A stretch of 64,000 bases of DNA from Zygnema cylindricum. Its lineage: Eukaryota; Streptophyta; Zygnematophyceae; Zygnematales; Zygnemataceae. The notes below the pieces were generated by a model that was given only the letters and a program-made list of their open reading frames with translations, ran no database searches and was not told where the DNA came from. The stretch spans positions 1 through 64,000 of the forward strand of contig JBBHKE010003070.1 in the NCBI GenBank assembly GCA_037447655.1, given 5' to 3'. Below, piece after piece: positions 14,506 through 63,405 of the stretch. A program made the translations under genes and the position numbers. Position 1 is the first letter of the stretch; the number at the start of each line of letters is the position of its first letter.

Positions 14506-15519
14506 TCACAAGGGCTTTTTTCTTTCGTCTCGGGGGTCTATTCGTCTGCCCTCCTTTAACCGCAGCTTGTTTAACTTAGTGCACTCTGCCATATAGTGCC
14601 CTGGTTTCTTACAAAAGTGGCACAAACCCTTGGGAGCCCTTCGTCCGAACTCGTCGGTCTCATTTTTCTGCCCCTCCCTTCCATAATATCCGACCTGTTT
14701 CTTGGAATCATTTTTCCTCCTATCGGTCCCTATTGCCAAAGCTTGCCCACTTTTTCCTCCCCTTTTAATCTCAATCGTATTCTCCCAAACAAGAATCATC
14801 CCTACCACTGAATTCCATATCCACCTTGAGTCTGGCAAGTCGTGCACACAGTTGACTATGTTGCCGAACTCATCTAGTAACTTCATGAGCAATCAATTAA
14901 CCTTCATCTTTTCAGTTTTAACTTGTCCAACACTCTCTCGCTCATGGAAAAGTCTTGCGAGCAAATTACAAAAATCCAACATCTTCACCCCCTTGTATAC
15001 ATTAGCGTCAATTTTGTGACAAGCGAACTGCTGTTGCTGAATAGTACCACTTCGGTACATCTTTATGAGAGCCACCCAAAGATCGCATGCCCTCTCTACT
15101 TGCCAATGAGGAGATGGAAGCCCTTGAGTAAGATGGCGGAGGATGAAGTGCTTTGCCGCTATATTGTTGTAGTCCTAGGTATCAGTATCATTCTCCTCGT
15201 TCCTTTGAATAGGTGACATGAATGCCAAACCGGTTGCTATTGGTGTGACCGTCTCCTTCTGCTCTCTTTTGTCCACCACCTCCCATTCCTTTGTTTCCTC
15301 CGTTGGAGATGGATCTGCATCTGTGGTGAATGTGCTTCCTGTAAACCTTCGAAGGATCCCAAGACTAGATGGACGCCTCAGAGGTCCACTCACTATTCCC
15401 CAAAACCGTTTCTCACATATAAGTCCTATCATCATACTTTCCCATTATATGATTCCAGTTCCATTGAAGATGGGCACCCTAGAGGGTAGGCCCATAACTT
15501 GTAACTCTAAGACCTCCAT
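14506..15519 (-). pseudogene. Copia D gag, starting inside the 5' LTR
   Basis: The first ATG in frame is at 15519-15517, still inside the LTR, with a stop codon just upstream in frame. Translation reads MEVLELQ across the LTR end, then VMGLP through the primer site, then SRVPIFNGT, the usual Copia Gag start. After interruptions it reaches a CCHC zinc knuckle, CHFCKKPGHYMAEC, and a Lys/Arg-rich end. Gag forms the virus-like particle and binds the genomic RNA. Stops and frameshifts near 15,450, 15,150 and 14,893 make it a pseudogene. The start inside the LTR recurs in B, C, E and (from its 3' LTR) F. Confidence 0.8.
15485..15499 (-). other. Half-tRNA primer binding site of Copia D
   Basis: Immediately after the LTR end the minus strand reads AGTTATGGGCCTACC. 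This matches 13 of 15 bases of GGTTATGGGCCCACC, the complement of the anticodon stem-loop region of plant initiator tRNA-Met. There is no TGG-starting site complementary to a tRNA 3' end. Confidence 0.8.
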
Positions 15520-16535
15520 AGGTCCTTAGAGTAGGCAGCTCACACGAAGCCTCTAGGATAATCTGACCCCTTTGTGTTTCAGCAAGAATAGCTGCCACCT
15601 TGGCAAACAAAAACTTTGACCACCTTCACCCGTGTGAAGGCAAGACTCCCCTGAGTTGATAGCAAAAATAATCTCTAAATTTGCTCCCTGGGTAGTAAGT
15701 TACGGTGGGTCAAAGTTGACCTTTTGTACAAAAGCTCTCTTGGAGAGAGGGTCCTATCTACCAATTTTTTCTAAGTCCTATCTCTCTCTAAAACTCTATC
15801 TACAGACGTACGGCACCAATCAGAATACTGAGTCGTAGAAAAAGGTACAAGTGCCGATGTACTTTTTGTACCGACATTGTACGACATGGCCAAAATGTTG
15901 ACACATGTCACATCTGGATTCGTTCTTGTTATTCCTGGAGATGCCGCAATCGAATGTGGTTGTGCCACGTGTCATTCGATAGGGGGATGATCGCAAACCG
16001 CCAACATCGTATTCCACGATCTAAGCTTTCTTTGCCATCGTCTGATCGAAACCAAGTTTCAATCTTAACCGTCATAAATACTTGCGCGGTATTTATTTCA
16101 CACTTGAAACAAATTCGAGATATTCGTTTCAAGATGTTTTGTATCCCGTACAATACAAAGAGTATGTATGTCCTAATATTATGTTAAATGAAATAGTCTA
16201 CGTGTAAACATTTATATAGTTATCAAACCTTATATCACGTAACACTGGTTTTAGACTAATTGGATAAAACTACTGGCTAACGACGTCTTTGACGGACAGC
16301 AGGTACTACGTTCAAATCATGGGTCCGTCAAGTACCATTTTGGTAAATCTACCAATCTACTATCTTCTCCCTCTGGATAGCATAGGCAGCCATGGCTCTT
16401 GCTCCCTCTCCAACTTTTAGTGACTGCGACAAGTGTGGGAGCTGAAGAGAGGAGTTAGAGGCAGACTGCCTTTGCTATTTTTTGCATTTTATCTTTTACA
16501 AAACCTAGAAAATACTAAAAGAACCTTTAAATACA
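15500..16535 (-). repeat. 5' LTR of Copia D
   Basis: About 1,036 bp. On the minus strand it starts TGTATTTAAAGG and ends GAGTTACA. It contains the CTCTC/GAGAG palindrome near 15,738-15,752 and the GTACA-rich block shared with E and F, and holds the first six codons of gag. Confidence 0.9.
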
Positions 16536-21385: not shown

Positions 21386-22275
21386 GATTTCCTTAACAAT
21401 CCTCTTTCCTAAGTTATGGGAATCAGTTGCAGTCAGCCATTGTTCAGGCATGTTCAGGCTTTTTGCAGAAATGACACACTCCTTTGAGAGGATCCTTTGC
21501 TGATCCATCCGTAGTATTCTTTCGTACTTGGATCATTTCTAATACTGAAGTCCAAATTCATCTGTCATATGGCAAATCTTGAACTTTGTACACAATATTT
21601 TCATACTTGTTCGGCAGTTTCATGTTCACAGTATTCGCCTTCTTCTTCTGTGTTTCCTCCCTTCCTGCACTTTGAAGCTCCATTAACAGCCCAACTTGGA
21701 AAAGCAAAAGTCTCACATCTTTCCTCCTTTATATACATAAGCTTTTAACAACTGATGTGCAAATTGTTGTTGCAGAATAGTTTCACTTCTGTATATTTTG
21801 ACAAGAGAGTCCCATAGATCCGCAGATACAGTGACATTGAGGAGGGGAATAACATCTGGTTCAATGTTATGTTGGAGAATGAAATGTTTTGCAACCATTT
21901 TTTTTATTCGTAGGAGTTAGCATACATTTCTTCTATTTTTTGTTTAGTTGATGCAAAAACATGTTTTGTAGCTATTGGTGTTGACTTTTCTTTTCCTTTT
22001 TCTACGATGATGCTTTCCCCATCATCATCTTCCTCCCACGTGGTTACTCTAGTTGTTTCTGATCCTTTTGGAAAACGAATTCCTCCAAAACCTAGTGGCA
22101 CTCCATGACTTGATGAAGGATGCCTCACATGTCCGCATACAATCCCCCATAAGTGTTTTTCGAAGAGAGCTCCTTGCATCATTGTATCCCTCTAGATTAA
22201 TCTTGTTCCACCAAAAATGGGCACCGTAGAGGGTGGGCCTATAATTAGTAACACTGTGGCCTCTATTTGTAACAT
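21386..22275 (-). pseudogene. Copia E gag, starting inside the LTR
   Basis: An ATG at 22275-22273 inside the LTR opens the frame MLQIEATVLLIIGPPSTVPIFGG across the LTR end and primer site; the rest is broken by stops. Later pieces show the Copia Gag N-terminal helices (ALFEKHLWGIVCGHV) and a zinc knuckle CHFCKKPEH...MADC near 21,450. The in-frame start is the same arrangement as in D. Confidence 0.75.
22232..22246 (-). other. Half-tRNA primer binding site of Copia E
   Basis: The minus strand reads AATTATAGGCCCACC directly after the LTR, 12 of 15 bases identical to the complement of the initiator tRNA-Met anticodon region. Confidence 0.7.
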
Positions 22276-23721: not shown

Positions 23722-23736
23722 ATTTATAGGCCCACC
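23722..23736 (+). other. Half-tRNA primer binding site of Copia F
   Basis: ATTTATAGGCCCACC directly follows the LTR, 12 of 15 bases identical to the complement of the initiator tRNA-Met anticodon region. Confidence 0.7.
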
Positions 23737-35624: not shown

Positions 35625-36684
35625 TGTTGTAATTTATAAATCTTTATTTCAGTAGATAGGGCTAAATATTTTCTAAGTAGTTTGCTTTGATACTTACCTT
35701 AATTAGTGTTACAATAGCAAAAGTACAATAGAGTATATTTTACTTTTACAAGGACACGTTTCGGCAACAGAACGTATGCAGGTTTTACAGAGTGGCGTCG
35801 ACAGTCAACAACACGCGTGACGCAGTTGACGATTGGATTCACAAGATCAGACAAATGAAATCTGAACCAGGTATTCCACAAATATATAGTACGGTTCGAC
35901 AATACCATCATCGATTGAATGTGTTCCAACAAATGAAATCTGAACCAGGTATTCCACAAATATATGGTAAGGTTCGATAGTACCATCATCGATTGAATTT
36001 GTTCTAACGAACGCGATTCACTTAGGACCACAAGCGTGATTCACGTGGGACCACAAGTGACGAAGCACTCAGGTGCTTCGTACTACACGACCAGAGTCGG
36101 CTAGACTTTAACGACTACCGCTGACTAAGCATCTAGAACGTTTTGTGTACGGTTCGATATCTGAAAATATCTGAATAAACATTGTTTTGTAGTTTAGTGT
36201 AATAAAAAATATTGTTCTACTAGTTAGGTTTTTGGAAAGTAACAATTAGGGTTTTTGATGTACTAACGGTACACTAACGTACAGGTAGGATACTTTGTCG
36301 TTAGTCAAGATAATAACCACAATAATAATTACCCAAATTAGTGTAGACCAGTAGATACACACTGTGAGTATATAACTTAGGACTTAACCAATTTTGTAGT
36401 ATCTAGTTTTGTGAATATGATTTTCTAAGCGCAGATTTTGGGAAACTTCCACACATCATATCTTATGGTTCACTTAGTCATTCGGGGTGCGATTTAAGGA
36501 ATTGTCAGTTTACTCTCTTGTGTATTACTGTGAAAAATTTAAGGCATTTTGGTCTTTTCAATCATATTTTGTGTAAGCTCAAAGTTAGCTATTGAGTAGG
36601 TGTTTGATAGCTTCTGCTATTTTCCATGTCTACTTCCACTACTACTGCTAGTCTTCATGCTGCAGCGGTGGTTGTAGAACAACA
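35625..36684 (+). repeat. 5' LTR of Copia B
   Basis: 1,060 bp. Features are a 78-bp tandem duplication (35852-36007), a hairpin CGAAGCACTCAGGTGCTTCG near 36,064-36,083, a TATATAA at about 36,369, and the gag ATG at 36626, which leaves 19 gag codons plus CA inside the LTR. Confidence 0.93.
35852..36007. repeat. 78-bp tandem duplication in the 5' LTR of B
   Basis: Two adjacent copies, each starting CAAATGAAATCTGAACC; they differ by a few substitutions. The 3' LTR and the LTR of G have one copy, so the duplication is private to this LTR. Confidence 0.9.
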
Positions 36685-37430
36685 GGTTATGGTCCTTTCG
36701 TCAAGAGTTGCTATCTTTAATGGCCAAAAGTATGCATATAGGGCGGCGATGGTTGGATCTTTGTTTGAAACTGGTGACTTATTGGGGGTCTGGGATGGCT
36801 CCCTTGATGAAACAGATCCTAGTTGGGCGAAAAAGAATTCAATGGCAAGGAACAATCTAATTCTTTGTATTTCAAAATATCTGGTCATGTCTCGCCTGAA
36901 AATAAAGAAGGCGAAGGAGATTTGGACATCACTGAAATCCGCTTTTGAGAAAGCGAATTTCCAAGAAGAGCTCTTGGTGGCTGGAAAAATATGGGGGAAC
37001 TATGGTCCACTATTGTGACAACTTTCGTGCACTAATTGATGCACACTCTTCTGCTGGGGGGTCATTTCCTGAGTTTCAGCAGGCAACTTTGCTTATTAGA
37101 GGACTTCCTAGTAGCATGAAAGGTGTGTCTGCTCATTTAAAGAGTCGTGATAAAGCTAGTTGGTCGTTTCAATTAGCATATAATCATATATTAGAGGAAG
37201 AGTCTAATACTAAACTTCTTAAAGGAGAAGGAAAGGTTGAAGCTTTTGCAACTAACTTTGACAATAGAGCTCAGTTTAATCAGAAGAGGAATTAGTTTAA
37301 CCAAAATCAGAATTAGTTTAATCCGTTTAATCATAGACCAAATAGACAATCATCTATTGCATATTTCTATTGTTGTGAGAAGGGTCATGGATACAGATAT
37401 TGTCCTAAGCTGAAAAAGGCTAATGAGACA
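36626..37430 (+). pseudogene. Copia B gag, starting inside the 5' LTR
   Basis: The ATG at 36626 lies 59 bases before the LTR end. The frame runs MSTSTTTASLHAAAVVVEQ, crosses into the primer site as QVMVLS, then SRVAIFNGQKYAYRAAM and a typical Copia Gag core (WDGSLDETDPSWAKKNSMA, KKAKEIWTSLKSAFEK). A frameshift near 37,000 leads to the second frame (GGSFPEFQQATLLIRGLPSS). A zinc knuckle near 37,365 reads YFYCCEKGHGYRYC, its first Cys mutated to Tyr. Stops near 37,293 and 37,312 follow. Gag assembles the particle and packages RNA. Confidence 0.88.
36685..36699 (+). other. Half-tRNA primer binding site of Copia B
   Basis: GGTTATGGTCC immediately follows the LTR-terminal ACAACA. The first 11 bases match the complement of the initiator tRNA-Met anticodon region with one mismatch; similarity then fades (11 of 15). 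Confidence 0.72.
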
Positions 37431-39249: not shown

Positions 39250-40080
39250 TGAGAGAAATCAGTGGATTGAGGTAGCAAACGATGAAATGAAGTCTATAAT
39301 GGAGGCACATACATGGGAGCTGGTGGATCATCCTCCAAGCAGAAAAGCCATCGGCAGCAAATGGGTATTCAAGGTGAAGTTGAACTCGGACAACACCATT
39401 AAAAGGTATAAGGTTAGACTAGTGGCCAAAAGGTACAATCAAGAAGAAGGTATTGACTTTAAAGAAACATTCTCTTCGTTGTCAGATTTCCCACTGTCAA
39501 AATTTTGCTAAATCTAACAGCTATAGAGAATATGGAAATACATCAAATGGATGTAAAAACGGCTTTCTTCCATAGAGAGTTAGAAGAAAACCATTTATAT
39601 GAAACAACCCAAAATGTATGTTTAAAAGGGAAATGAAGAATTAGTGTATAAATTGATGAAATCTTTGTATGGGCTAAAACAAGCCCCGCGTTAGTGGAAT
39701 TTGAAGTTAGATGAGTTTTTGACAAGGCTAGGTTTTGAGAGAATTAGCTCAAATCATTCTATATGTCTTACAAGGCGAGGATAGGATACTATACATTGCT
39801 GTATATGTGGATGACTTATTATTAATAAGCAAGTGAATGAATGAAATAAACGGCATTAAAGCGGCTTTAAGGTCTAGGTTCGAGATGAAAGACCTCGGAG
39901 AGGCCAAGTATATCTTAGGAATACAAGTAGAAAGAGACAAAAACAAAAGACTGATTATGTTGACTTAGAAAGAAGCAATAGGTAACATGCTGAAAAAATT
40001 TGAAATGAAAGATGTAAAGGGATCTGTAACTCCCATGGAGTTTAGGCATAAATTGGAAGGAATTGATTAAGACTCAGACA
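39250..40080 (+). pseudogene. Copia B reverse transcriptase
   Basis: EMKSIMEAHTWELVDHPPS, IGSKWVFKVKLNSDN and KETFSSLSDFPLSK, then after stops VKTAFFHRELEE, SLYGLKQAPR and YVDDLLLISK (catalytic motif), then IQVERDKNKRLIMLT and KEAIGNML. Frame changes near 39,510 and 39,600 plus stops disable it. G at 49,520-50,440 is its close relative. Confidence 0.88.
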
Positions 40081-40325
40081 TAATGGTTTGTGAGGGTCTA
40101 CAGACAAAGGAGGAAGAGTTTATGGCTTCAAAGCCATATAGACAGATAGTCGGAAGTCTTATATATTTTATGAATTGTACAAGACCCGATATTGAAGCAA
40201 CTATAAGAGTCTTAAGTAGAAGTTTGCAGAATCCTAAAAAGGCAGACTGGGAAGCACCAAAAAAGGTGCAGAGATATCTTGCAGGTACTCGAAATCTTAA
40301 GCTTCTACTCAGAGGAAGAGAGGTT

Positions 40326-40330
40326 AAAAT
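40326..40330. repeat. TSD of the solo LTR, left copy (AAAAT)
   Basis: Identical to 41741-41745. Confidence 0.85.
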
Positions 40331-41740: not shown

Positions 41741-42226
41741 AAAATACAGTCGTGGAGCGATGCTAGCTATAGAGACATGCCAAGCTAGAAATCTACAACC
41801 AGCTTTGTTTTGAAGATTGGAGATGGAACTTGCTGTTGGAGTAGCAAATTACCAAAGGTTACAGCTCAATCCACAATTGAGTCAGAATATATGGCAGCAA
41901 CTTCTACCCTAAAAGAGCTCTTATGGGTCAAGTCCATTTTACACGAACTTAGGTATATGCAAACCAGTCCTCAAGCTATCTCGTGTGACAAGAAGGCCGC
42001 CATCGCAATTGCCTCTAATAAAGCCATCACTTTAAGAGCAATCACATGGATGTTAGACTTCACTTTGTTAGAGAAAAAATACTTGCAAAAGTAGTTAAAT
42101 TGTGTCATTTACCGGAGGAGAAGACGGTGGTTGATATTTTAACAAAAGCCCTTCCTGCTCCAAATTATTGTTTTGCAAAGATGCTATTGGACTAAGTGAG
42201 TAACAGAGTCTAAAGATTTAAGGGAG

Positions 42227-43225
42227 TGTTGTAATTTAGAAATCTTTATTTCAGTAGAGAGGGCTAAAATAACTTAGAAAATTTCTAAGAAGTCTGCTGT
42301 AATACTTACCGTAATTAGTGTTACAGTTGCAAAAGTACAATATAGTATATCTTACTTTTACAAGGACACGTTTGACAAGAGAACGTATGCAGGTTTAACA
42401 GAGTGGCGTCGAGAGTCAGCCACACGCGTCACGCAGTTGACGATTGGATTCACAAGATCGGACGAACAAAATCTGAACCAAGTATTCCACAAATATATGG
42501 TACGGTTCGACAGTACCATCGTCAATTGAATTTGTTCCAATAGCCGTGATTCACCTAGGACCACAAGCGTGATTCATGAGGGACCACAAGCATGATTCAC
42601 GTGGGACCACAAGTGACGAAGCACTCAGGTGCTTCGTACTACACGACCACGGTCGGTTGGACTTTAGCGACTACCGCTGACTAAACATCTAGAACGTTTT
42701 GTGTACAGTTCAATATCTAAAAATATCTGAATAAACATTGTTTTGTAGTTTAGTGTAATAAAAAATAGTGTTCTATTAATTATGTTTTTCGAAAATAATA
42801 AATATGGTTTTTGAGGTACTACGGTACAATAATTTACAGGTAGGATACTTTTTCCTTAGTCAAGGTAATACCTGCAGTACAGTTACCCTAATTATTGCAG
42901 ACTAGTAGATACAAACTGTGAGTACATAACTTAGCTAATTTTGTAATATCTAGTTTTGGGAATATGATTTTCAAAGGTCAGTTTTTGGGAAACGTCTGCA
43001 CATCATATCTTATGGTTTACAGAGTCATGTGGACTGCAATTTGGGGAATTTTACTCCGTTGTGTATCACTGTGAGAAATTTGAGGAATATTGGCCTTTTG
43101 AGTCATATTTTGTGTAAGCTGAAAGTTGGCTGTTGAGTAGGTGTTTAATAGCTTCTGTTGTTTTCCATGTCTACTTCCACTACTACTGTTGGTCCTCCTA
43201 CTGCATTGGTGGTTGTAGAACAACA
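42227..43225 (+). repeat. 3' LTR of Copia B
   Basis: 999 bp, TGTTGTAATTTAG...AGAACAACA. It has three GGGACCACAAG-type direct-repeat units (the 5' LTR has two) and the CGAAGCAC/GTGCTTCG hairpin near 42,618. It also holds the orphan gag start ATG at 43167 (MSTSTTTVGPPTALVVVEQ), in the same phase as in the 5' LTR. Confidence 0.93.
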
Positions 43226-43230
43226 TGACA
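43226..43230. repeat. TSD of Copia B, right copy (TGACA)
   Basis: Identical to 35620-35624. Confidence 0.95.
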
Positions 43231-50583: not shown

Positions 50584-50588
50584 GATCG
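50584..50588. repeat. TSD of Copia C, left copy (GATCG)
   Basis: Identical to 63406-63410. Confidence 0.93.
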
Positions 50589-51273
50589 TATTGAAAAGGA
50601 AGCTTTAGTAAGTCTTAGAAATTTGAGTATAGGACTTAGAATATTTTTGGAATACCAACTATTCAATATAAACCAAATTTAGTGTGGAATATTTGTAGTA
50701 TCTACACAAATAGTTAATCTTTAAGAAAAGTAGTGTGTAGGGATGTCAATGAATGTTGACGTGATAAGAATCACCCGGATTTTTAGGGTATAGATATTGT
50801 TAGTGGACAATTCCGGTCCAAACATTTAGATTTTTGTCTGTAGGTTGTCTAGTGAACCCTGTACATATGTTTTATATGTTTTCTATATATTTTGAGTATT
50901 AAGTTTAATTAGGATTGATCAATTTGATACAGAATGTACAATCTACACAGAGTTTAAGGAAATGAGAGCACTAAGTGCAGTTTAAGGTGTTTTGTGCTCT
51001 ATTGTCTTTGATTTGCTTGTAGGACATGTTTGTTTCCTTGAAAGACCTATTTCATTTGTAGTTACATATCTTACAGTATTGATCTAATCTGATATGTATT
51101 CCTCTTTGGGTTTGCTTCCGCTAACATGTCTGATAATGGCTCAGCTCCTGCTGGAAGTGCTCCTATTAGCCCTAGTGCTCCACCTGCTTCTGCAAGAATA
51201 TCCCAACTGGTGCAAGTGTGACTCCTAGTGGGAGTGGATCATAGCCGAGTCTAAATGCCCATGATCTTCAACA
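50589..51273 (+). repeat. 5' LTR of Copia C
   Basis: 685 bp, TATTGAAAAGG...CTTCAACA. The gag ATG is at 51126. In this copy a small deletion shifts the frame before the LTR end; the 3' LTR copy keeps it open. Confidence 0.95.
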
Positions 51274-51288
51274 GGTTACGGGCCCACC
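51274..51288 (+). other. Half-tRNA primer binding site of Copia C
   Basis: GGTTACGGGCCCACC, 14 of 15 bases identical to the complement of the plant initiator tRNA-Met anticodon region. It is the best match among the five elements and lies directly after the LTR-terminal CA. Confidence 0.85.
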
Positions 51289-51560
51289 GCCCAAATTGCC
51301 TATCTTTGATAGATCGGACTACTTGTACAGGGAAGATATGCTGAGCTCCTATTTCGAAGAGAGCGACTTCTCATCCATTGTGGATGGGACTGCTGATGAG
51401 ACTGCACCGGATTGGAGAAAGAAGAATCTCCCCTGCCTCAATGTCTTGAATTAATCTATGACAAAGGATTTGGTAATGTCTTACCTTGATATGAAAAAGG
51501 CTTCTCAAATATAGTTTAGTGTACATGTTATGTATGTTCAGCTTGATGTCACTGTTCAGA

Positions 51561-51565
51561 CTAAT
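51561..51565. repeat. TSD of Gypsy I, left copy (CTAAT)
   Basis: Identical to 58870-58874. Confidence 0.97.
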
Positions 51566-52059
51566 TGTAAAAGAGGTAACAACACCCCACAATACGTCAC
51601 AATGCACAGCGGAAAATACCAAGGATCTCCCCGTAGCAACAGCAAGAGCACACAGAACTCACAGACAAAGTTGGGCTTGGTTACTTGAAAGAGAGTACAA
51701 GGTTGCGCTAGCTGCGTAGGTATATTTCAGGTCTACTTCCAGTGCCTTATTCACTAGGTCTACCTGTCTATTTAAACTAGCTAAGTGCTGGTCAACTTAG
51801 TACTATACAGCTGTCCACGTGGACCTTCGCGGCCAATCCAAAATCTATCCAAACTTCCTTCTAGAACTATACAGTTCAATCTACACAATTGCGGCGTTGC
51901 TATGCTGCGCTGCTACGCCGCTAAGTTGCTATGCTGCTATGCTGCGCTGGTCTAGAATCGCAGCTGCGCTGCTTGGCATCGCAACAACGCTGCTCTGAAA
52001 TCGCAACTATAGCAGCCTAGCCCTAACTACTAAGTACCTAATTCTGTAACCCTGTTACA
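51566..52059 (-). repeat. 3' LTR of Gypsy I
   Basis: TGTAAAAGAGG...CCCTGTTACA, with inverted TGTAA/TTACA ends. It contains a GC-rich block with repeated TATGCTGCGCTG/GCTGCGCTGCT motifs (about 51,900-51,995). TTTAAATA on the coding strand near 51,768 is a possible TATA element. Confidence 0.95.
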
Positions 52060-53373
52060 ATGCCTTCCACTAAGGATTCAGCGTCCCGCTGAACTTTGAT
52101 GGAGTCAGGGAAACTGCAGTTGCCGGAGTATGTCGTATGTTTCTTCACGATACTCCTCGAACTCCTGGCGAAGAACGTCGAGTTGATGTTGGAGCTGTCA
52201 CATCGGGTCTCCAGTAACGCGATGTGACGATCTGTAGCTGCCAACCGCCGCCGAGTAATTCGTTCCCGAACCTGATTTTCCGCTTCCTCCATGGGTACTG
52301 CGGTTTGCTACCGAACGTCCGCAGGTGCAGGCTCCTTGGGTGCCGGAGTCCTGGGTTCTCCGGGTTCAGCCCCTGGGGTAGCTTCCTCTGGTTCCTCGTC
52401 CGCCGGTTCCCACCGAGGCACCTTTCGTAATTTGAAGGACACGTGTTTTCTTGCAGCTCGGCCTGCTGCAGAGCATTCCTTCGAGCCAGCTTGAGTACTC
52501 GCACTTCAAGGGTGACTTCCGCTGGAGAGATGATGTCGTGGAGGAGGAAATCCCACAGGTGATAATGGCGAAGTAACCCGGGAACATCAATTCTGTACCT
52601 GTAGTTTTCCTCTACCACCTCTACGAACGGTAAGGTGTGAGGATTCTGTGCACATAGCCTTTATGATTATTCCCCAGGTCCTTGGTCCGCATGAAATTCC
52701 ACGCTGGGTGTGACGGAACGTTGGTAGGGATGTGGATAGGATCTCCAGGCTTCCCTATACGCCATTCTTTGGGCCACTCTGAGGGGTCCCTATAAAACCT
52801 TTTGGCGAAGCTGAAGGCGAGGTCCGGATGCTGGGTGTCGACCGATAGTGGGAAGAGGTAGTCGGGAATTTCCTCTCCCTTTTCACTCTCCTCCTCCGAA
52901 TTTCTTCGGTTTTCGCGGAAGAGAAACACATCATCACCACTGGGGTATTGTTCCTCCGCCTTCCTCTCCGCGCTTTCAGACGACTGCTCGTCTGGAGTGC
53001 TCTCCTTGTTTGGGTCCCGCGTCACCTCCAGATCTAAGGCGCGCTCCTCAATTGGCGGAGGCGTTGGTTCGCGTTCCGGCTCCTCCGCCTCCGACAGCTC
53101 ATGATCTGCTTGAAGTTCCTGATCACCTTCCCGCGTTGGGGTGTATTCAGGGTCCTGTGAGTTCTCTGACCCCTCCCCTCCACTGGTCTCCGCCGGTCCT
53201 GCCTCGTAACTGACACTATCCTCCGGTTCCGGCTCCACTTCTACCTCTCTTCGCCTGCTTGCTTCCACCATGGCTTCCGCCGCCTTTAGCAATCTCTCGG
53301 GGGCGCTTGGGTCTCCTTGTCCCACCCGTACCAGTCTCCTCCTTTTCGAGGGTGGAAAGGACGACGACGCCAT
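52060..53373 (-). CDS. Extra ORF downstream of pol in Gypsy I, function unknown
   Basis: From an ATG at 53373 one frame stays open for 251 codons to 52621. The start MASSSFPPSKRRRLVRVGQG contains a basic KRRR stretch that could be a nuclear localisation signal. A long Glu/Pro/Ser-rich acidic region follows (EVEVEPEPEDS, EPEREPTPPPIEERA). Then comes a more structured part, HPDLAFSFAKRFYRDPSEW and PIHIPTNVPSHPAWNFMRT. After 52,621 a second frame continues sensibly (FVEVVEENYRYRIDVPGLL, HYHLWDFLLHDIISPAEV), then a Pro/Glu-rich frame and MEEAENQVRERITRRRLAAT, to the 3' LTR edge, suggesting one longer protein broken by frameshifts. I recognise no domain. Typical chromoviruses end soon after the chromodomain, so this is an added gene. 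It is not obviously an envelope: no signal peptide or membrane helix is seen. Confidence 0.55.
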
Positions 53374-53869
53374 AGACACTGCTGAACCAAACAATTCTGG
53401 TAGCTCCAAAAGCGGAGGTAAACTAATTGTGCGGAGAGAAGCCGTTTCTAAGCTGCCGAGACTGAGTTGGTTGTGAGGACGAATGATGGTTGTGTTCCCG
53501 GGGGTTGAGGGTTTCAATTTTGGGCTGTGCGCAGCGTCGCAGCGTGCGAGGGTATCGCAGTATCCAACATGTCTAAAACTGCGCTGCTGCGGCGGAACCG
53601 AGGGTTCGTCGTTACCTACATAGTGAAACACAATTGCGCCGTTGCGCTTTCCTGTCAGCGCAGTGGTGATACTGCGATCCTCTGACGTCATCATGACCAT
53701 GTTGCGCTGCGGTGGTTGCGCTGCTACAGCGCTGCAGTGTGGTAACATCGCCGCTGCGGTCCTTTGCCGCGTCCCCAATATTATTGCGATGGTTGCGCCA
53801 CTGCGATTCGCCCCTTTGTTGCGGCCGCTGCAATTGCCCCTCGGGTAAAGCTGAGTGTCCTCACTCTGC
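53374..53869 (-). other. GC-rich spacer after the Gypsy I chromodomain
   Basis: The pol frame stays open through it, but the translation (S/A/Q-rich, no pattern) does not look like protein. It is rich in GCGCTGC/GCTGCGG motifs like the GC block of the LTR of this element, suggesting a non-coding spacer or promoter region for the downstream ORF. Confidence 0.5.
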
Positions 53870-56520
53870 AGAAACCGGCGCAGCAACTCCGGGGAATGCA
53901 GATCCCCCTCGTCCACCCAAGAGTCGTCCTCAGCACCGTAACCCTTCCAACGCACCAAGTATTGCGTGGAGTTAGAATTCCGAGAGCGACGTGACTTAAG
54001 GATCTCTTCCACCTCATACTCGTCTGAGGTACCTTGAACGGGTTGTAGAGGAGTATGCCGTCGTCGGTTAGGGAACACCGAATCAGGATCACGGAATGGT
54101 TTAAGGAGGGAAACATGGAAAACATTGTGGATATGCCAGTCCGTCGGGATATCCAACCTGTAAGCGACGTTGCCCACACGGGACAGAATTGTGAACGGGC
54201 GCGTGAACTTTGGGGCTAACTTTTTAGAGAGGGCTCCCGGCAAGGAGAGGTTTGCCATATTAAGGCGAACCTTGTCCCCCACACAGAAGACTATTTCCTT
54301 CCGGTGAGCGTCCGCCTGCGACTTTTGGCGATCCTTTGCCAGTTGGAGCGCCTTTGCCGCCTTTTCCAGGTTGCCTTGCAACGTCTTGGCAAAGTCTAAA
54401 GCAGCCGGTGTTTCGCAGTCCGCTACCAATAAAGTGTGGGGAAGAGTGGGTTGTCGTCCATTGAGGGAGAAAGGCGTAGCATTTGTTGACGAGTGGACTG
54501 CACTGTTGTATGCTACTTCGATTGCCGTTAAATGGTCCACCCAATCCGTTTGGTGCACCGAGACATAAGCCCGCAATGCTTCCTCCAAAGTCCGATTCAC
54601 CCGTTCAGTTTGACCATCAGTTTGAGGGTGGTAGGCTGTGGACATGGCAAGCTGCGTTCCGCATAACGCAAATAGATTTTGCCAAAAGTGGCTCACGAAT
54701 TTTCGATCGCGGTCGCTGACGATCCTTTTTGGAAGACCGTGATGGCGGAATATTTCCCGAAAGAATAAGTCCGCAATATCTCGTGCAGTAGCCGTAGTGG
54801 TCGTGGGTAGAAAATGTGCCATTTTCGTTAGGTAATCCACGACGACGAAGATTGAGTCGTAGCCCTCCTTCGTCCGGGGAAGGGCCACGATAAAATCCAT
54901 CGAGATCGCCTCCCAAGGAACAGATGGTATTGGGAGGGGTTGTAACAGACCTTGTTGCCCTGAATCAGATTTGTTTCTATTACACGAGTCACACGTCCGG
55001 ACATATTCTGCAATGTCTCGAGTCATGTTTGGCCAGTAATACGCTTCAGCGACACGTGCGGTTGTTTTATCTCGTCCAAAATGTCCACTGAGCGGCTCGT
55101 CATGACTCATTTGAAGAATTGCGTGACGAAGTGCCGTATTTGTCGGCACATATAGCCGTGTTGTCTTACTCGGTCTATACCGCCACATATCATTGGCAGT
55201 TCGAACGAGTACTTTCCGTTTGACAAGTTCCTTTAGTGAACCATCATCGCCGTAGGCGGCCTTTATCCGACTTAACCACTGTTCGTCCACTTGCACCGTA
55301 CTGGTGACTGCGCTGAGCTTCTGATTTTGCGCTTCGGTCAACGCTGCGCTTTTCTCTTTCACAGAGTCTCCGTTCCTCTGCTGCGGTGCTTGCGGTTGTT
55401 GCTCCGCTGCCGGCGCAGCGACGTCAGGTCTTCTTGACAGCGCATCCGCCGGGTTCGTTTTGCCCGGCTTATATTCAATAACAAGTTCCGGACCGAAGGT
55501 TTGCAGGAACGTCATCCAGCGCACTTGTTTCTTGGACAACTTCGGCTGGGTTTGGAGATATTGTAAGGCGTGGTGATCCGTGATAACCGTGATCCGTTTT
55601 CCCTGAACGTAACACTTCCAAACCTCCAGCGCATTGATAATAGCTATTGTTTCCTTCTCATGGGTAGCCCAGTTCAACTCTGCTGCCTTTAGTTTGCGAC
55701 TGTCGTAGGCGATGGGTTGAAGGCCTTTTCCTTGATCCTGCATAAGGATCGCTCCAATAGCCATATCGCTAGCGTCAGTAATTACCGTCCAAGGTAAATC
55801 CGGATCGGGAACAGCTAACACAGGGGCGGTAACCAACCGCTCCTTTAGCGTGTTAAAGGCTGTTTCTTGCGCCGCTTTCCAATCATAGGGCGCATCATTC
55901 TTGAGCAATTCCGTGAGCGGTGCAGCGATTTTTGCGAAACCTTCGACAAAACGTCGATAATAGGAGCATAGTCCGAGAAAGCTTCGTAACTCCGTAATAT
56001 TCGCCGGCTGCGGCCACTCCTTTACTGCTCTAGTCTTGTTGGGATCCACTGCGATCCCGTCCCGGCTCACCACATGGCCTAGAAAGTCAATTTTCTCCTT
56101 AAAGAAGTCACATTTACTTCTTTTTGCGTATAACTTATGCTCCCGAAGGACTTGGAGGACCGTCCGTAAGTGCTTCACATGCTCCTCCTGCGTTCGGCTA
56201 TACACCAATATGTCATCTAAGAAGACGATCACGAATGCGTCCAGATATTGTCGAAAGATGGAATTCATTAAATGCATAAAGGTCGCCGGTGCGTTAGTCA
56301 ACCCGAACGGCATTACCCGAAACTGGAAATGACCGTATCGAGTTCTGAACGCCGTCTTTTCCACATCCTCCTCGGCAATTCTGATCTGGTGGTAGCCGCT
56401 CCGCAAGTCATTTTCGAAAAATATTTGGCACCTCGAAGTCGATCCAACAATTCGTCTATCCTCGGTAGGGGGTACGCATTCTTCACCGTTAACTTGTTCA
56501 GCGCTCGGTAATCTATACAC
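53870..56520 (-). pseudogene. Gypsy I pol: RT, RNase H, integrase, chromodomain
   Basis: Open frame of nearly 900 codons. RT continues with NDLRSGYHQIRI, FRVMPFGLTNAPATFM and the catalytic FLDDILVYS. RNase H has TVITDASDMAIGA, HEKETIAI and TDHHALQYL. Integrase has the HHCC finger (HDEPLSGHFGRDKT...CDSCNRNK) and catalytic blocks ISMDFIVALP, VSDRDRKFVS and TDGQTERVNRTLEE. A chromodomain at about residues 828-880 (YEVEEILKSRR, QYLVRWKGYG, DSWVDEGDL) may direct integration to marked chromatin, as known for chromoviruses. The frame is offset from the upstream RT part by a one-base deletion near 56,410, so it cannot be made as one Gag-Pol without frameshifting. Confidence 0.95.
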
Positions 56521-56953
56521 ATACGGAACCCTCCATCTTTCTTGTTCACAAAGAGAACAGGGGCTCCATACGGTGACTTGCTTGGTTCGATTGCTCCGGC
56601 TTCGACCAACTCCGCGAGTTGCTTTTTCAATTCGTCCAACTCGGTGTAGCTCATCTTGTACATCCGATTAGCCGGAGGTACCGCTCCAGGAACAAGCTCT
56701 ATTTTATGATCCACTTCGCGCTTCGGAGGTAATCCTTCGGGGAGCTTCGGGGGAAATACATCTGCGTACTCCTCGAGAAGTTTTGACACGACTTCCGGGG
56801 CCTCTTCGGAAGTCTTTCCAATGTCGTCACTTTCTTTGGAGTCGAAGTCGGGGTCCTTCTTTTCCATTCTTCCGGGATCTCTTCCTTCGCCTCCTCCATT
56901 GGCTGGACGACCGCCATATAAATCGTTTCCCCTTTCTTGAGTGCCCTCTTAAG
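56313..56953 (-). pseudogene. Gypsy I pol, N-terminal RT part
   Basis: Reads DVFPPKLPEGLPPKREVDH, IELVPGAVPPANRMYKMS, ELKKQLAELVEAGAIEPS, SPYGAPVLFVNKKDGGFRM and CIDYRALNKLTVKNAYPLP, the first RT blocks. It is separated from the gag-protease frame by a TAG at 56954 and a frame change near 56,870. The segment after the TAG (LKRALKKGETIYMAVVQP) is the normal continuation, showing the stop is a mutation or a readthrough site. Confidence 0.9.
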
Positions 56954-58339
56954 CTATAAGGCCGAAAGCAGGCGTCCCTCTTCCGTTCCCTTGCCAGCCG
57001 CTCCCGCTGTTACCTCAAACTCTTCTTCACCTTTCTTCACTCTCATGGCGCCACTTCTCCAATCAATCGTCGGATTCCATTTTTGCAGCCACGGCTTCCC
57101 TAATATTACCTCATGGTCCCCAAGAGGTAATACATGAAGTGTGTCGTACCATCGGAATTTCCCCATGCCGACGCGTAATCTCGGGGTACGATGGGTGATG
57201 GATAAGGAACTGCCGTCGGCCAATTGTACCGACTGGGGATTATTTAGTACCACAAGAGGAAGTTTCAACCTTTTTACCGTCGCCTCGTTAATGAAGTTCC
57301 CCGACGCTCCGGAGTCCACCATGAAGTCAGCTGCACTCACTCCTATTTGACCCCGAAATATCAAAGGGTCTCCTCCTTCTCCGGCTAACCTCATAACGGT
57401 AAGTTTTCCTTTTTTGGGGACTTTCCGTTTTGGACACTCTCGAGCCATATGATCTGGAGAACCACATTGGAAGCATAGGCCATTTTGCCTCCTCCGTTGG
57501 ATTTCCTCGGGGGACAAGTCATTGGTCTTGGTCTTGGCGGTTTTCTTCTTTTTCCGCAGGACGTTGACCGCTTCCTTATCCTCATTAATTGCGCCAAGCT
57601 CCATGGGGGTTGGACCTTCGTCTCGTCGGTTTCCTCCGCTACTGCTCGACCCGTAGTGATAAGGTCTCCGGAGATTAAAGTCGACCGAATCGGTCCGCTC
57701 CGCAAACTGGATGATTGCTGAGAGAGGAGGAGTTGTGCTTTCACGAGCAAGCCATTGTTCCACATCTCTACGAATAGACGACTTAAGCCCCTTCACGTAA
57801 CGATCCACGGCTTCATCCTCCGTCATCGTAGGTATTTGAACCTTGCACTCCAAGAACCTATGCGTAAACTCCATCACTGAAGTTCGTTGTTTCAATACTG
57901 CGATCTTATCTCTCGCCGCCTTCACCGTGTTGACAAGCTGCCAAGTGTCGCGGAGGAGTTGAACGAAGAGCGCCCAGACGTTCGGTATTTCATCGTCCTC
58001 CACCAATGTTCTCCACCAAGCCCCCGCTGCCCCTTTAAGAAGACCACCCGCGTAGTGAATCTTCTCACGATCTGATAGGCTAGGAAAACTCTCGAGATAG
58101 TTCGCCACGGAGAATAGCCATGAGTCAAGGTTCTTGTGTCTAGCAGGGTCAAACTCGTCGGGAAGTCGTAATTTCGATCTCCGGGAGTCTCTCTCGACAC
58201 CTCCATGAGGTCGCTCGCCTAGGCGCGTCTCCAAGGCAGTGACGGTATTACTCAGCTGCGCATTCTGTAATCTCACACTATCCAACTCCCTGAGAACTTG
58301 CGCCAACATTTCTGTAGTGGATACACCGTGTCCATCCAT
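56954..58339 (-). CDS. Gypsy I gag-protease
   Basis: 461 codons from an ATG at 58339, 21 bases after the primer site. The N-terminus has a coiled-coil-like EMLAQVLRELDSVRLQNAQL. The Gag fold contains FDPARHKNLDSWLFSVANYL and YAGGLLKGAAGAWWRTL. The zinc knuckle is CFQCGSPDHMAREC. The protease has FMVDSGASGNFINEATVKR (active-site DSGAS intact) and HEVILGKPWLQKWNPTIDW. It ends at TAG, after which pol continues in frame for a while. This part looks functional: Gag assembles particles and the protease matures them. Confidence 0.95.
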   Translation of the reverse strand: MDGHGVSTTEMLAQVLRELDSVRLQNAQLSNTVTALETRLGERPHGGVERDSRRSKLRLPDEFDPARHKNLDSWLFSVANYLESFPSLSDREKIHYAGGLLKGAAGAWWRTLVEDDEIPNVWALFVQLLRDTWQLVNTVKAARDKIAVLKQRTSVMEFTHRFLECKVQIPTMTEDEAVDRYVKGLKSSIRRDVEQWLARESTTPPLSAIIQFAERTDSVDFNLRRPYHYGSSSSGGNRRDEGPTPMELGAINEDKEAVNVLRKKKKTAKTKTNDLSPEEIQRRRQNGLCFQCGSPDHMARECPKRKVPKKGKLTVMRLAGEGGDPLIFRGQIGVSAADFMVDSGASGNFINEATVKRLKLPLVVLNNPQSVQLADGSSLSITHRTPRLRVGMGKFRWYDTLHVLPLGDHEVILGKPWLQKWNPTIDWRSGAMRVKKGEEEFEVTAGAAGKGTEEGRLLSAL

Positions 58340-58359
58340 GCTGTCGAGTCACGGGTAAC

Positions 58360-58372
58360 GGCTCCGATACCA
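58360..58372 (-). other. Primer binding site of Gypsy I (3' end of a tRNA)
   Basis: On the minus strand TGGTATCGGAGCC follows the LTR by one base. It resembles the standard tRNA-Met 3'-end site TGGTATCAGAGC with one change. Confidence 0.88.
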
Positions 58373-58373
58373 A

Positions 58374-58869
58374 TGTAAAAGAGGCGACAATACCCCACAA
58401 CACGTCACAGTGCACAGCGGAAAACACCAAGGATCTCCCCGTAGCAACAGCAGGAGCACACAGAATTCACAGACAAGGTTGGGCTTTATTACTTGAAAAG
58501 AGAGTACAAGGTTGCGCTAGCTGCGTAAGTCTATTTCAGGTCTACTTCCGGTGCCTTATTCACTAGGTCTACCTGTCTATTTAAACTAGCTAACTGCTGG
58601 TCTACTTAGTACTATACAGCTGTCCACGTGGACCTTCGCGGCCAATCCAAAATCTATCCAAAACTTCCTTCTAGAACTATACAGTTCAATCTACACAATT
58701 GCGGCGTTGCTATGCTGCGCTGCTACGCCGCTAAGTTGCTATGCTGCTATGCTGCGCTGGTCTGGAATCGCAGCTGCGCTGCTTGGCATCGCAACTGCGC
58801 TGCTCTGAAATCGCAACTATAGCAGCCTAGCCCTAACTACTAAGTACCTAATTCTGTAACCCTGTTACA
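58374..58869 (-). repeat. 5' LTR of Gypsy I
   Basis: 496 bp, near-identical to 51566-52059 (a handful of substitutions and two small indels seen by eye). Confidence 0.96.
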
Positions 58870-58874
58870 CTAAT
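58870..58874. repeat. TSD of Gypsy I, right copy (CTAAT)
   Basis: Identical to 51561-51565; gag of Copia C resumes right after it. Confidence 0.97.
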
Positions 58875-59312
58875 ATAGCAACAGAAATCTTTGAATTTAG
58901 ATATTCTGGAGGTAGTATGTCAGATCATTGCCATGGTATGAAAAGGTTGTTCGTTCAGAGTACAAATGCAGGTGGGGACTTTTCACCACCTTAGCAAGCT
59001 ATGCTATTGATGAGAACTTTATTCAATGAGTATAAGGGAGCCTTGGATAGGCTTAGGGCTCTTCCACAACGTAAATGGAACATAGCATTAGCAATTCAAC
59101 TTATTTTGAGTGAAGAAGCTAACCAGATTCCACAAAGAGGTAGTAGTAAGTCTGTTCAGGCACTAGCTAACCAGTTTTCAGATTCTAAGATTGGTAGTGA
59201 AACTGGTAGAGGTAGTGGTCCTAGAAGGTCACCTTTAACATGCTATTACAATGATGAAAAAGGGCATGTGCTCAGAAAATGTAATCATATAAGAGAGCAA
59301 AAGCCACGGTAA
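58875..59312 (+). pseudogene. Copia C gag, C-terminal part
   Basis: Continues the interrupted gag: TEIFEFRYSGGSMSDHCHG, a stop near 58,994, then MRTLFNEYKGALDRLRALPQ and a zinc knuckle CYYNDEKGHVLRKC, whose second Cys has become Asn. Ends with NHIREQKPR and a TAA. Confidence 0.88.
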
Positions 59313-59670
59313 ATTTTTGCTCTAGATAGGACGAAAGTCGGGTTCCTTCTCAATCAGGTGGTCGACCAACTGCTCTCTTCAACGAACTTGAGGAGGAGGA
59401 CGTGAGCAGCTTTCCCACCAACAGCGAAAAGAAACACTTTGCGATGGCACAAGCAACCGTAGGCGTGGAGGAAGAGGAATGGATAACAGACTCTGGTGCA
59501 TCTGCACACATGTGCCGCAATCACCATCTGTTTGAGAGTATTCAATCTATTTCACCCATCAAAATTTATTTTAGTGATGATACCTTTGTTGAGTCGAAAG
59601 CAAAGGGAAGGGTGTCACTTATGTTGAATGTAGAGGAAAACCTGTGAAAAGGGCTTGGAAGATGTGTTGC
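59313..59670 (+). pseudogene. Copia C protease
   Basis: After a short frame change the sequence reads EEEEWITDSGASAHMCRNHH, with an intact DSGAS active site, then PIKIYFSDDTFVESKAKGR and SLMLNVEEN. A frame change near 59,645 leads to LEDVLHVPAFKRNFFSTS in the integrase frame. Confidence 0.9.
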
Positions 59671-60960
59671 ATGTTCCAGCTTTTAAAAGAAACTTTTTCT
59701 CTACGTCAGTGGTAGAAAAGAAATGTTTTAAAACTATATCTGAGAATGGGAAGAAAACAGTGAGTAAGAATGGGAAAATAGTTGCAGAGGGATTTGCTGG
59801 AGGTAACAATTTGTATCGGTTGAGTCTTGCAAATGATAATGACAATGATGTTATGTACTCAAGTGTAATCAATGATTGTGATTTATGGCATAAACGATTA
59901 GGACATGTGAATTATGATAGATTAGAAAAGATGGTAAATCAAAAAATGGTGGAAGGTGTAAAAATTAGTCAAAACCATCATCAATATATATGTGATGGTT
60001 GTGCAATGGGAAAAATTCATAAGTTGCCTTTCCCTTCGCAAACTGATCATAGAAGTAACAGGGTGATAGAACTAATTTATTCAGATGTATGGGGGCCATC
60101 TAGGTATCCATTTGTGGGAGGTGCTAAGTTTATGCCTACCTTTACTGATGACTATAATAGATTTACTACAGCTTATTTTTTGAAAAGCAAGGATGAAGTC
60201 TTTTCAAGATTTAAAGAGTATAAGGCTTGGGTTGAAAATCGGCATGAGAGAAATACAGCAGGATTCAGATTTGATAATGGAGGGGAGTACATTTCTAATG
60301 AGTTTGCAAAATTCCTAAAATTGCATGGAATCTCACGTCAGTTAACCGTTCCTTATTCTCCAGAACAAAACGGTGTTTCAGAGAGGATGAATATGACCAT
60401 ATTAGAGTGTGATAGGACAATGATGGCAGATATGGACATAGATTTAAAATTTTGGGCAGAGGCTATGAATTGTGCAACTTATGTGAGAAACGGGCTAGAA
60501 ACAAGAGCAGTAAAAGATAAAACTCCCTACGAAATGTGGACAGGACACAAACCAGATGTAAGTCACTTCAAAGTTATTCGAAGTAAGATATTTATGCTAG
60601 ATGATGATCCACAGAAATAGAAATTAGAGCCAAAAGGCATACCAGGGATATTTCTAGGGTATGATGATCATGCCAAGGGTTATAAAGTATATGACATTAA
60701 GAGAAATAGAGTCGTGGTAGCTAGAAACATTACAGTGAAGGATGAGGGAAAAAGGAGTAGATGTATTTAGTCAACGTACAGATGAAAAGAAAGATCGACG
60801 TGTTGATTATATCTTTTTAGAGGAAAATCCTATGTTTTTCAAGAAAAATATAGAAAATGCATCTACATCAACTCAAAGTGACTTTCAATCATCTTCTCCA
60901 CCAGAAAAAAAAATGTTACGTCTGAAAGAGTTGCAGACTCTCCAGTAGCAGACTCTCCTC
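59655..60960 (+). pseudogene. Copia C integrase
   Basis: A 321-codon open frame (59655-60620): LWHKRLGHVNYDRLEKMV and CDGCAMGKIHKLPFPSQ (HHCC finger), LIYSDVWGPSRYPFVGGA (first Asp), GFRFDNGGEYISNEF (second Asp; the usual RSDNGGE reads FDNGGE), YSPEQNGVSERMNMTI (catalytic Glu), FWAEAMNCATYVRN. All three catalytic residues remain. A TAG at 60,618 and a frame change near 60,740 affect only the tail and linker. Confidence 0.92.
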
Positions 60961-61031
60961 TACCTCAAGCTAAAACTGAATCACAAGAAGAATAACATGT
61001 ATCAAGGAGGAGGACCCAACCATCTATACCA

Positions 61032-62054
61032 GTGACAGAATTTCTAGGTGGAGTTAGGCGAAGTGCACGACTCAGGGGAGAAAGTGCAGCCTTTGCTCAC
61101 TCAGCACACACAGAAGAGCCTCTAACGTTAACAGAAGCTTTTTCGAGTAATGAAAGGGAACACTGGGTGGAAGCAGTCAATGAAGAAATGAAGTCCATCA
61201 TGGAGGCCCAAACATGGGATCTGGTGGAACTTCCTCTTGGAAGAAAGGGTATTGGAAGTAAATGGGTGTTTAAATTAAAATTGAACCCAGATAATACCAT
61301 AGACAGGTATAAGGCTCGCTGGGTTTCTAAAGGATGTAATCAAAAGGAGGGGATAGATTATGAAAAAACATTTTCACCGGTTGTAAGGTTTCTAACTGTC
61401 CGCATTTTAGTTACATTAGCTGCCATAGAGGATTTTGACATCCACCAAATGGATGTCAAAACTGCATTTTTGCATGGTGATTTACTTGAGGTCATTTATA
61501 TCAAGAAGCCAGAGGGTTATGAGGAAGCAGGAAAAGAAAATCTTGTGTGCAGACTTATAAAATCTTTTTATGGCCTAAAACAGGCCCTTAGGCAATGGAA
61601 CCGAAAGTTAGATGAGTTCTTGACAGGATTAGGATTTACTAGAATTAGTTCAGATCATTCAGTATATGTGATGTGTGGTGATAATCCTGATGAGGTGATA
61701 TTCATTGCTGTGTATGTTGATGATTTGCTGCTAATTAGTAGGAACAAAAAAGGAATTGCTAGAGTAAAACACGCTCTTAATTCAAAATTTGAAATGAAGG
61801 ATTTGGGTGAGGCTAAATACATTCTTGGCATACAGGTTGAAAGAGATAGAGAAAAGAAAATCATTAGGCTAACTCAAAAAGAAGCGATAGGAAACATGTT
61901 GGAAAAATTTGGTTTGGTTGATGCCAAAGGTTGTGCAACTCCTATGGAGTATAAGCAAAAACTTGAAGGAATGGAGCATGAGTTTGGAGTCATAATAGAT
62001 GAGGAACTCAGTGCAGAAGAGAAAAAAATTATGTCCCAAGTACTCTACAGATAA
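61032..62054 (+). CDS. Copia C reverse transcriptase
   Basis: An uninterrupted 340-codon frame: REHWVEAVNEEMKSIMEAQ, GIGSKWVFKLKLNPDN, DYEKTFSPVVRFLTVRI, QMDVKTAFLHGDLLEVIYI, SFYGLKQALRQWNRKLDEF, the catalytic YVDDLLLISRN, AKYILGIQVERDREKKIIR and LTQKEAIGNMLEKFG. All RT blocks are present. It ends at a TAA at about 62,052 just before the RNase H frame, so a single lesion separates the two. Confidence 0.95.
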   Translation: MTEFLGGVRRSARLRGESAAFAHSAHTEEPLTLTEAFSSNEREHWVEAVNEEMKSIMEAQTWDLVELPLGRKGIGSKWVFKLKLNPDNTIDRYKARWVSKGCNQKEGIDYEKTFSPVVRFLTVRILVTLAAIEDFDIHQMDVKTAFLHGDLLEVIYIKKPEGYEEAGKENLVCRLIKSFYGLKQALRQWNRKLDEFLTGLGFTRISSDHSVYVMCGDNPDEVIFIAVYVDDLLLISRNKKGIARVKHALNSKFEMKDLGEAKYILGIQVERDREKKIIRLTQKEAIGNMLEKFGLVDAKGCATPMEYKQKLEGMEHEFGVIIDEELSAEEKKIMSQVLYR

Positions 62055-62059
62055 GTAGT

Positions 62060-62698: not shown

Positions 62699-62720
62699 GC
62701 CTTCTAAAGCTTAAGGGGAG

Positions 62721-63405
62721 TATTGAAAAGTAAGCTTTAGTAAGTCTTAGGAATTTGAGTCTAAGACTTAGAATATATTTGGAATACTAACTATTCAATA
62801 TTAACCAAATTTAGTGTGGAATTTTTGTAGTATCTACACGAATAGTTATCTTTAAGTAAATTAGTGTGTAGGGCCGCCAATGAATGTGGACGTGATAAGA
62901 ATCACCCGGATTTTTAGAGTATAGATATTGTTAGTGGACAATTCTGGTCCAAACACTTAGATTTTTGTTAGTAGGTTGTCTGGTGAACCCTATATATACG
63001 TTTTAGATGTTTTCTAGATCATTTAAGAATTTTGTTCAATGAGGATTGATCAATTCGATACAAAATGTACATTCTACACAGAGTTTAAGGAAATGAGAGC
63101 ACTAAGTGCAGTTTAAGGTGTTTTGTGCTCTATTGTCTTTGATTTGCTTGTATGACATGTTTGTTTGGTTGAAAGACCTCTTTCATTTGTAGTTACATAT
63201 CTTACAGTATTGATCTAGTCTGATACGTATTCCTCTTTGGGTTTGCTTCCGCTAACATGTGTGATAATGGCTCAGCTCTTGCTGGAAGTGCTTCTATTAG
63301 CCAAAGTGCTCCACGTGCTCCTCCAAGGACGAATATCCCAACTGGTGCAAGTGTGACAAGTGGGAGTGGATCACAGCTGAGTCTAAATGCCCATGACCTT
63401 CAACA
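62721..63405 (+). repeat. 3' LTR of Copia C, carrying 49 open gag codons
   Basis: 685 bp, same ends as the 5' LTR. From the ATG at 63257 the frame is open for exactly 49 codons and ends with the LTR-terminal CA as the first two bases of the next codon (MCDNGSALAGSASISQSAP ... LSLNAHDLQ). There are no stops. Confidence 0.95.

Follow-up and report, generated by a model that had tools for sequence, protein, structure and literature searches.

Primer-binding sites complementary to half of a tRNA-Met are recorded for the Osser and Bryco lineages and for part of the Gymco-II lineage of Ty1/copia retrotransposons (REXdb; Neumann et al. 2019, PMC6317226). In Ty5, tRNA-iMet is cleaved internally, within its anticodon loop, and the 3' end so created serves as the primer; Drosophila copia likewise primes with a half-tRNA, the tRNA species being unstated in the same account (PMC5371799). 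For yeast Ty1, PMC4974528, which is followed here, puts the primer site within the frame of GAG, while PMC5371799 places it in U5. Ty1 pairs with the 3' acceptor stem of the whole tRNA-iMet rather than with the anticodon arm, and its site therefore lacks an AUG complementary to the anticodon. How the RNAs of LTR elements are split between translation and reverse transcription has been described as an open question (PMC3735527).

We analyzed Copia elements in a window of 64 kb (the whole stretch analyzed, positions 1 to 64,000 of contig JBBHKE010003070.1) and their relatives across the genome of Zygnema cylindricum. Compared by description, these elements resemble Osser, Bryco, and part of Gymco-II in their half tRNA-Met primer site; the lineage descriptions in PMC6317226 make no mention of a gag start in the LTR or of codons in the primer site. 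They resemble Ty1 in having the primer site within the gag frame, and Ty5 and copia in a putative half-tRNA type of priming; in the part of PMC5371799 that deals with priming, the gag start relative to the primer site was not found for Ty5 or copia. Half-tRNA-Met sites and a primer site in GAG are thus known already, and what is new is the combination of a half-tRNA site, a start in the LTR, and a second in-frame AUG complementary to the primer anticodon. A half-tRNA primer site that contains the gag start codon was not found in the titles and abstract openings of the open-licence papers listed by literature searches, which is no proof of absence.

It was noted that the first AUG in phase with the Copia gag frame lies mostly inside the 5' LTR, from which the frame runs across the site matching the anticodon arm of tRNA-Met. 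Because an in-phase ATG at the LTR end is joined to a site that matches tRNA-Met, one stretch of RNA likely both binds the primer and is translated. We consider it probable (roughly 0.68) that Gag is translated from the LTR, with the same RNA serving as U5 end, primer site, and codons; the cap site, the use of the starts, and priming are predicted from the sequence.

Layout of the window

Self-comparison of the window gave the LTR pairs of several Copia elements and a nested Ty3/gypsy chromovirus (Table 1). The labels B to F were matched, by inference from its wording, to those of an earlier sequence-only reading of the same DNA. In element C, the integrase lies upstream of an RVT_2-type reverse transcriptase, which is the Ty1/copia (Pseudoviridae) order. 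Because 5-bp target duplications bound B, C, and D, the LTR ends of these three elements are true ends, and the primer site follows them without a spacer.

Table 1. Elements of the window, their LTRs, start codons, and primer sites (scores are matches to the anticodon-arm site)
Feature	Position	Strand	Remarks
Element D	10103-16535	minus	
D 5' LTR	15500..16535	minus	target duplication CACTG 10098-10102 / 16536-16540
D LTR tail	15500..15519	minus	ATG at -20, MEVLEL + CA
D primer site AGTTATGGGCCTACC	15485..15499	minus	13/15
Element E	from 16888	minus	5' LTR split by F
E primer site AATTATAGGCCCACC	22232..22246	minus	12/15; LTR ends CT; in-frame LTR ATG at -41
Element F	about 22701 to 29152	plus	
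F primer site ATTTATAGGCCCACC	23722..23736	plus	12/15; LTR tail with ATA at -20 and TAA
Element B	35625-43225	plus	
B 5' LTR	35625..36684	plus	target duplication TGACA 35620-35624 / 43226-43230
B LTR-encoded start MSTSTTTASLHAAAVVVEQ + CA	36626..36684	plus	in phase with primer site and Gag
B primer site GGTTATGGTCCTTTC	36685..36699	plus	11/15
Element B2		minus	B-like
Element C	50589-63405	plus	sits inside B2; holds chromovirus
C 5' LTR (TATTG..TTCAACA)	50589..51273	plus	target duplication GATCG 50584-50588 / 63406-63410
C LTR ATG	51126..51128	plus	out of frame in window copy
C primer site GGTTACGGGCCCACC	51274..51288	plus	14/15 to anticodon arm of tRNA-Met(cat)
Nested Ty3/gypsy chromovirus	51566-58869		within element C
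Chromovirus primer site TGGTATCGGAGC	58361-58372	minus	adjoins its own 5' LTR
C gag_pre-integrs and rve	59634-60617		upstream of RVT_2
C reverse transcriptase (RVT_2)	60996..62051	plus	
C 3' LTR	62721..63405	plus	LTR ATG in phase, open to LTR end

The primer site and its tRNA

The canonical 15-nt site, GGTTATGGGCCCACC, stands at the LTR terminus of B, C, and D with four, one, and two mismatches, and the sites of E and F have three mismatches each, exactly as scored by the sequence-only reading. At up to three mismatches, the window holds five matches compared to a mean of 0.56 in shuffled sequence (0 of 100 shuffles reached five); these are the sites of C, D, E, and F and one at 4479, where no LTR pair was found.

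A tRNA-iMet segment matched the genome eight times at up to two mismatches, six times exactly. The one match that was fetched (L103) was called as a tRNA-Met with anticodon cat by ARAGORN, and its nucleotides 25-39 (GGTGGGCCCATAACC) are the exact complement of the canonical site (15/15); this 15-mer is intact in seven of the eight matches. We take genes of this type to encode the initiator, a view that rests on their match to this segment, and the tRNA-Met partner of the primer site is likely the initiator. The half-tRNA-Met site without a spacer that had been proposed for these elements was thereby borne out in the genome's own tRNA. With a site that directly follows the LTR and complements the anticodon arm of a tRNA-Met of the host (putatively the initiator), the elements are probably of the hemivirus type in their priming.

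The nested chromovirus uses the same host tRNA-Met, by its acceptor end rather than its anticodon half: its primer site matches the 3' end of L103 plus CCA at 12/12 positions, CCA being added to the 3' end of tRNAs. Two elements in one window are thus matched to two parts of one tRNA, and the chromovirus forms a built-in contrast to the Copia half-tRNA sites. The earlier reading had named a standard site after the true LTR end as the counter-evidence to look for, and none of the four window matches to TGGTATCAGAGC (up to two mismatches) lies at a Copia LTR end; the one at 58361 stands beside the LTR of the nested element.

Reading frame through the LTR end in the window copies

An in-frame ATG inside the LTR had been claimed for B, C, D, and E. 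We found an in-phase LTR ATG and a frame open to the primer site in B, D, and E; in B, the ATG is at -59 and gives 19 codons, then Q-V-M, and the 3' LTR of B and the LTR of B2 keep the length and the frame with differing residues. The claim did not hold for the named 5' LTR of C, where the ATG at -148 is in phase 1 as the result of a 4-bp deletion, and where the frame that meets the primer site holds six stops in the preceding 50 codons. In the 3' LTR of C, the frame is in phase and open for 49 codons. Eight of the 40 listed places of the C family were fetched, the window copy included and two (L002 and L003) being identical in the stretch compared; an in-phase ATG at -152 was found in 7/8, and 5/8 lacked a stop up to the site. 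One of these copies (L002) retains a natural 272-aa frame from the LTR ATG through the primer site into gag.

The window copies are decayed, with the 5' LTR of C out of frame and that of F without a start. The codons across the site read Q-V-M-V-L (B), Q-V-T-G-P (C), Q-V-M-G-L (D), L-I-I-G-P (E), and Q-F-I-G-P (F), and the statement that in every one of the five the terminal CA of the LTR begins a Gln codon does not hold for E, whose LTR ends in CT. The position of the start differs among the B, C, and D-type families, while its phase does not. It was also noted that the E LTR end (22247-22300, minus strand) carries tandem near-copies of its last bases (GAGGCCACAATGTTACA / GAGGCCACAGTGTTACT), which lengthen the LTR-encoded peptide in frame.

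Genome-wide occurrence and sampled copies

At up to one mismatch, GGTTATGGGCCCACC occurs 10,444 times in 352.8 Mb and the reversed pattern 17 times. CA followed by the exact site was found 5,181 times (reversed, 6), and an ATG stands exactly 20 nt before the site in 4,366 of these (84%; reversed, 5), a pattern that permits stops within the five codons and includes a minority that carry one. This spacing (ATG, five codons, CA|G) puts the ATG in Gag phase. An absent or out-of-frame LTR ATG, which would have spoken against the earlier observation, is therefore not the rule at exact junctions; the observation is partly confirmed, and the trait is wider than had been claimed, extending to thousands of copies.

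The sample comprised 90 of the first 100 exact sites listed by contig. Sites identical over 400 bases and double listings were removed, and the 91 listed, less three second listings of neighbouring loci, left 88 distinct sites. Choosing exact sites favours younger copies, and hardly any of the 88 belong to the B or C type; the only C-like site (L018) has its LTR frame closed by a stop. CA precedes the site in 78/88 copies. An ATG at -20 was found in 81/88, and 70 of those 81 have no stop up to the site; the other 11 carry TAA at codon 5 (six copies) or TAG at the junction codon (five copies). In one further copy (L026; 1/88), the ATG is displaced by a single base. Downstream of the site, 47/88 copies keep frame 0 open for 60 codons or more, compared to 0/88 for frames 1 and 2. 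The LTR frame is open in 24 of the 25 copies with gag open for at least 150 codons versus 46 of the remaining 63 (one-sided p = 0.012; the test takes no account of relatedness among copies). The Ty1-like arrangement, a gag ATG in the LTR with the frame open through the site, is found in most copies, not in all.

Six of the 88 sites (L051, L074, L085, L093, L094, L096) have TA instead of CA at the junction, so that TAG stands in place of the Gln codon; three of them (L093, L094, and L096) are no more than 10 kb apart.

ATG content of the leader and coding constraint

We assessed the leader in one representative from each of 19 clusters (80% identity, 87 sites), with the expectation taken from dinucleotide shuffles. 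Summed over the 19 representatives, the stretch from -350 to -20 holds 32 ATGs compared to 79.6 expected, and that from -600 to -350 holds 90 compared to 93.6. Little or no depletion was seen in 4/19 (L017, L018, L038, L095), and the C leader holds ATGs, some of them out of phase and located between the LTR ATG and the site. Across 24 long-frame copies, the stretch from -340 to -21 has 0.67 ATG per leader (none in 15/24), compared to 4.1-7.7 for the five other permutations of A, T, and G. Such a paucity of ATGs would be expected of a 5' leader that is scanned. In 44/88 copies, the frame has a stop three codons upstream of the -20 codon, so that gag, when the ATG is present, could begin at just two AUGs in these copies.

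Differences by codon position were compared among 18 D-type cluster representatives. In the LTR tail they number 273/235/235, and downstream of the site 340/279/583. Counted by codon, the tail has 461 nonsynonymous and 42 synonymous differences (94 and 115 synonymous in the two shifted frames), and those involving stops number 45 in the true frame and 92 and 0 in the shifted frames. Selection on the LTR-encoded peptide, as previously suggested, is thus not seen in the tail, which has no third-position excess, in contrast to the clear excess just after the site. Gag coding is visible right after the site, and in the LTR tail only the ATG and the openness of the frame look kept, not the residues. 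For Q-V-M-G-P, a constraint on the peptide cannot be separated from the constraint on the primer site. Within the C family, the codon-position comparison gave no signal, as expected of dead copies.

The AUG of the primer site and stop-carrying LTR tails

The anticodon of the primer is CAU, and a perfect site of this kind therefore holds an AUG. This AUG falls in frame and carries G at both -3 and +4, bases that complementarity to the tRNA dictates. At the LTR ATG, position -3 is C in 62/81 copies and position +4 is mostly G; G at -3 with G at +4 is a stronger start context than C at -3. The sequence-only reading is silent on the site supplying its own in-frame AUG, and the second in-frame start is an addition made here.

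Stop-carrying tails leave the site AUG as the sole candidate start. In one such copy (L009), a TAA lies between the two ATGs, and the frame is then open for 504 codons to the end of the fetched DNA. The 3' LTR was recovered for two of the four TAA copies tried; for the others (L035, L042), no matching LTR was found in the stretches fetched. The 3' LTR of L009 (paired L099) reads GAA, with 150/151 aligned bases identical to the 5' LTR, and that of L010 (paired L100) also reads GAA, so the TAA of these two copies need not come from the parent. Thus the same change, a 5' tail CATAA against a 3' tail CAGAA, appears in two families beside the primer-site TTATG. A change limited to the 5' LTR fits a templated (quasi-palindrome) correction of CAGAA..TTATG, an imperfect inverted repeat that would form only at the junction.

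One family has the TAA tail with the site 98 times and the GAA tail with the site 508 times; with or without the site, its TAA tail occurs 324 times in all. At 2/35 listed places with TAA and site (C109, C565), another TAA tail follows after about 5.35 kb, in C109 with a site of its own behind it, and one of the 100 listed places with GAA and site (C339) has a TAA tail downstream. Among LTR tails of one strict pattern in the fetched DNA, CATAA is read by 4/66 that are followed by a site and by 1/17 that are not. Since the second TAA tail lies one element length away, copies such as C109 and C565 may replicate, perhaps helped in trans, and some parents with a TAA tail may have transposed, whether in cis or in trans. 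We considered the TAA tails as an inherited class that starts at the primer-site AUG; the GAA 3' tails of L009 and L010 make this uncertain, while C109 and C565 each have a second TAA tail one element length downstream.

Translation and priming on one RNA

If Gag is translated from the LTR, ribosomes would scan the leader and start at the LTR AUG, and leaky scanning would let some start at the primer-site AUG too, giving two Gag N-termini eight residues apart in D-type families. A tRNA 5' half ending near nucleotide 39 would prime minus-strand DNA. Annealing of this primer would cover the second start codon, and translation and priming would therefore compete for one RNA. A more tentative extension, which we hold to be possible at somewhat long odds, is that the site AUG is a Gag start decoded by the intact tRNA-iMet and paired with a tRNA-iMet half during priming, such that annealing would take the RNA out of translation and commit it to reverse transcription. 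Both processes would meet on a single 15-nt site whose start codon is complementary to the anticodon of the primer, in thousands of places in one genome, and competition between ribosome and primer would thus be directly testable. Annotation pipelines should also take into account that gag can begin before the LTR ends.

The stronger context of the site AUG, the lack of codon bias in the LTR tail, and the numerous TAA tails, including that of L009 with its long open frame, would also agree with Gag starting only at the primer-site AUG; integration or RNA structure would then maintain the LTR end, the conserved -20 ATG included, and the frame of this ATG would be incidental. We regard this as unlikely, since the LTR ATG and open frame are kept in nearly all long-frame copies (24/25), the leader is poor in ATGs up to the LTR ATG, the start of B and C lies elsewhere in the LTR and yet in the same phase, and the GAA tails of the L009 and L010 3' LTRs mean that a TAA need not be parental. 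Far less probable is a Gag start further downstream on a separate RNA, spliced or internally started, with the open frame through the LTR end as a by-product. BARE has been reported with distinct RNA pools for translation and replication (PMC3735527), which would accommodate such an RNA; however, the third-position excess begins right after the site, and in P0001 (L036 translated for 300 codons beginning at its -20 ATG), the Met residues 1 and 9 are followed by no further Met until residue 29, which falls within a weak Retrotran_gag_3 match (residues 18-50, E 0.059, below cut-off). Chance, or an artefact of old repeats, is suggested only by the decayed state of the window copies C and F and is scarcely credible, being already contradicted by the genome-wide counts of the site against its reversed pattern and of the -20 ATG among exact junctions. 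Translation of Gag from the LTR remains the reading that we prefer.

Relatives and genomic arrangement of the elements

The translated P0001 is a Copia-type Gag (Retrotran_gag_2, 3.2e-15), and a 140-residue piece from C matches the same family at 0.002, below the curated cut-off. No public relative of P0001 was found at E <= 0.001 among 1077 candidates. A scan of viral contigs with a 15-base core returned nine contigs, which were taken as chance.

The reverse transcriptase search covered 2871 proteins. Among the best 120 of these, the top identity was 53%, and the named relatives were mostly Tnt1-like or unnamed flowering-plant proteins at 41-49%, with one labelled Serratia. In a tree of 66 rows (six window sequences and 60 of the best 120 public ones), the six window reverse transcriptases form one clade of their own (100/99), with the sub-groups {D, E, F} (100/98) and {B, B2, C} (80/30, weak). 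The view that the trait is common to the lineage in the window holds insofar as it is present in both sub-groups of one clade; it does not hold for the 5' LTRs of F and C, which lack a start or are out of frame.

At three places in the genome (C90, C381, and C109, in G000), primer sites of the same orientation recur at a spacing of 5.34-5.35 kb, every one of them preceded by an LTR tail, and these are likely tandem Copia arrays with shared LTRs.
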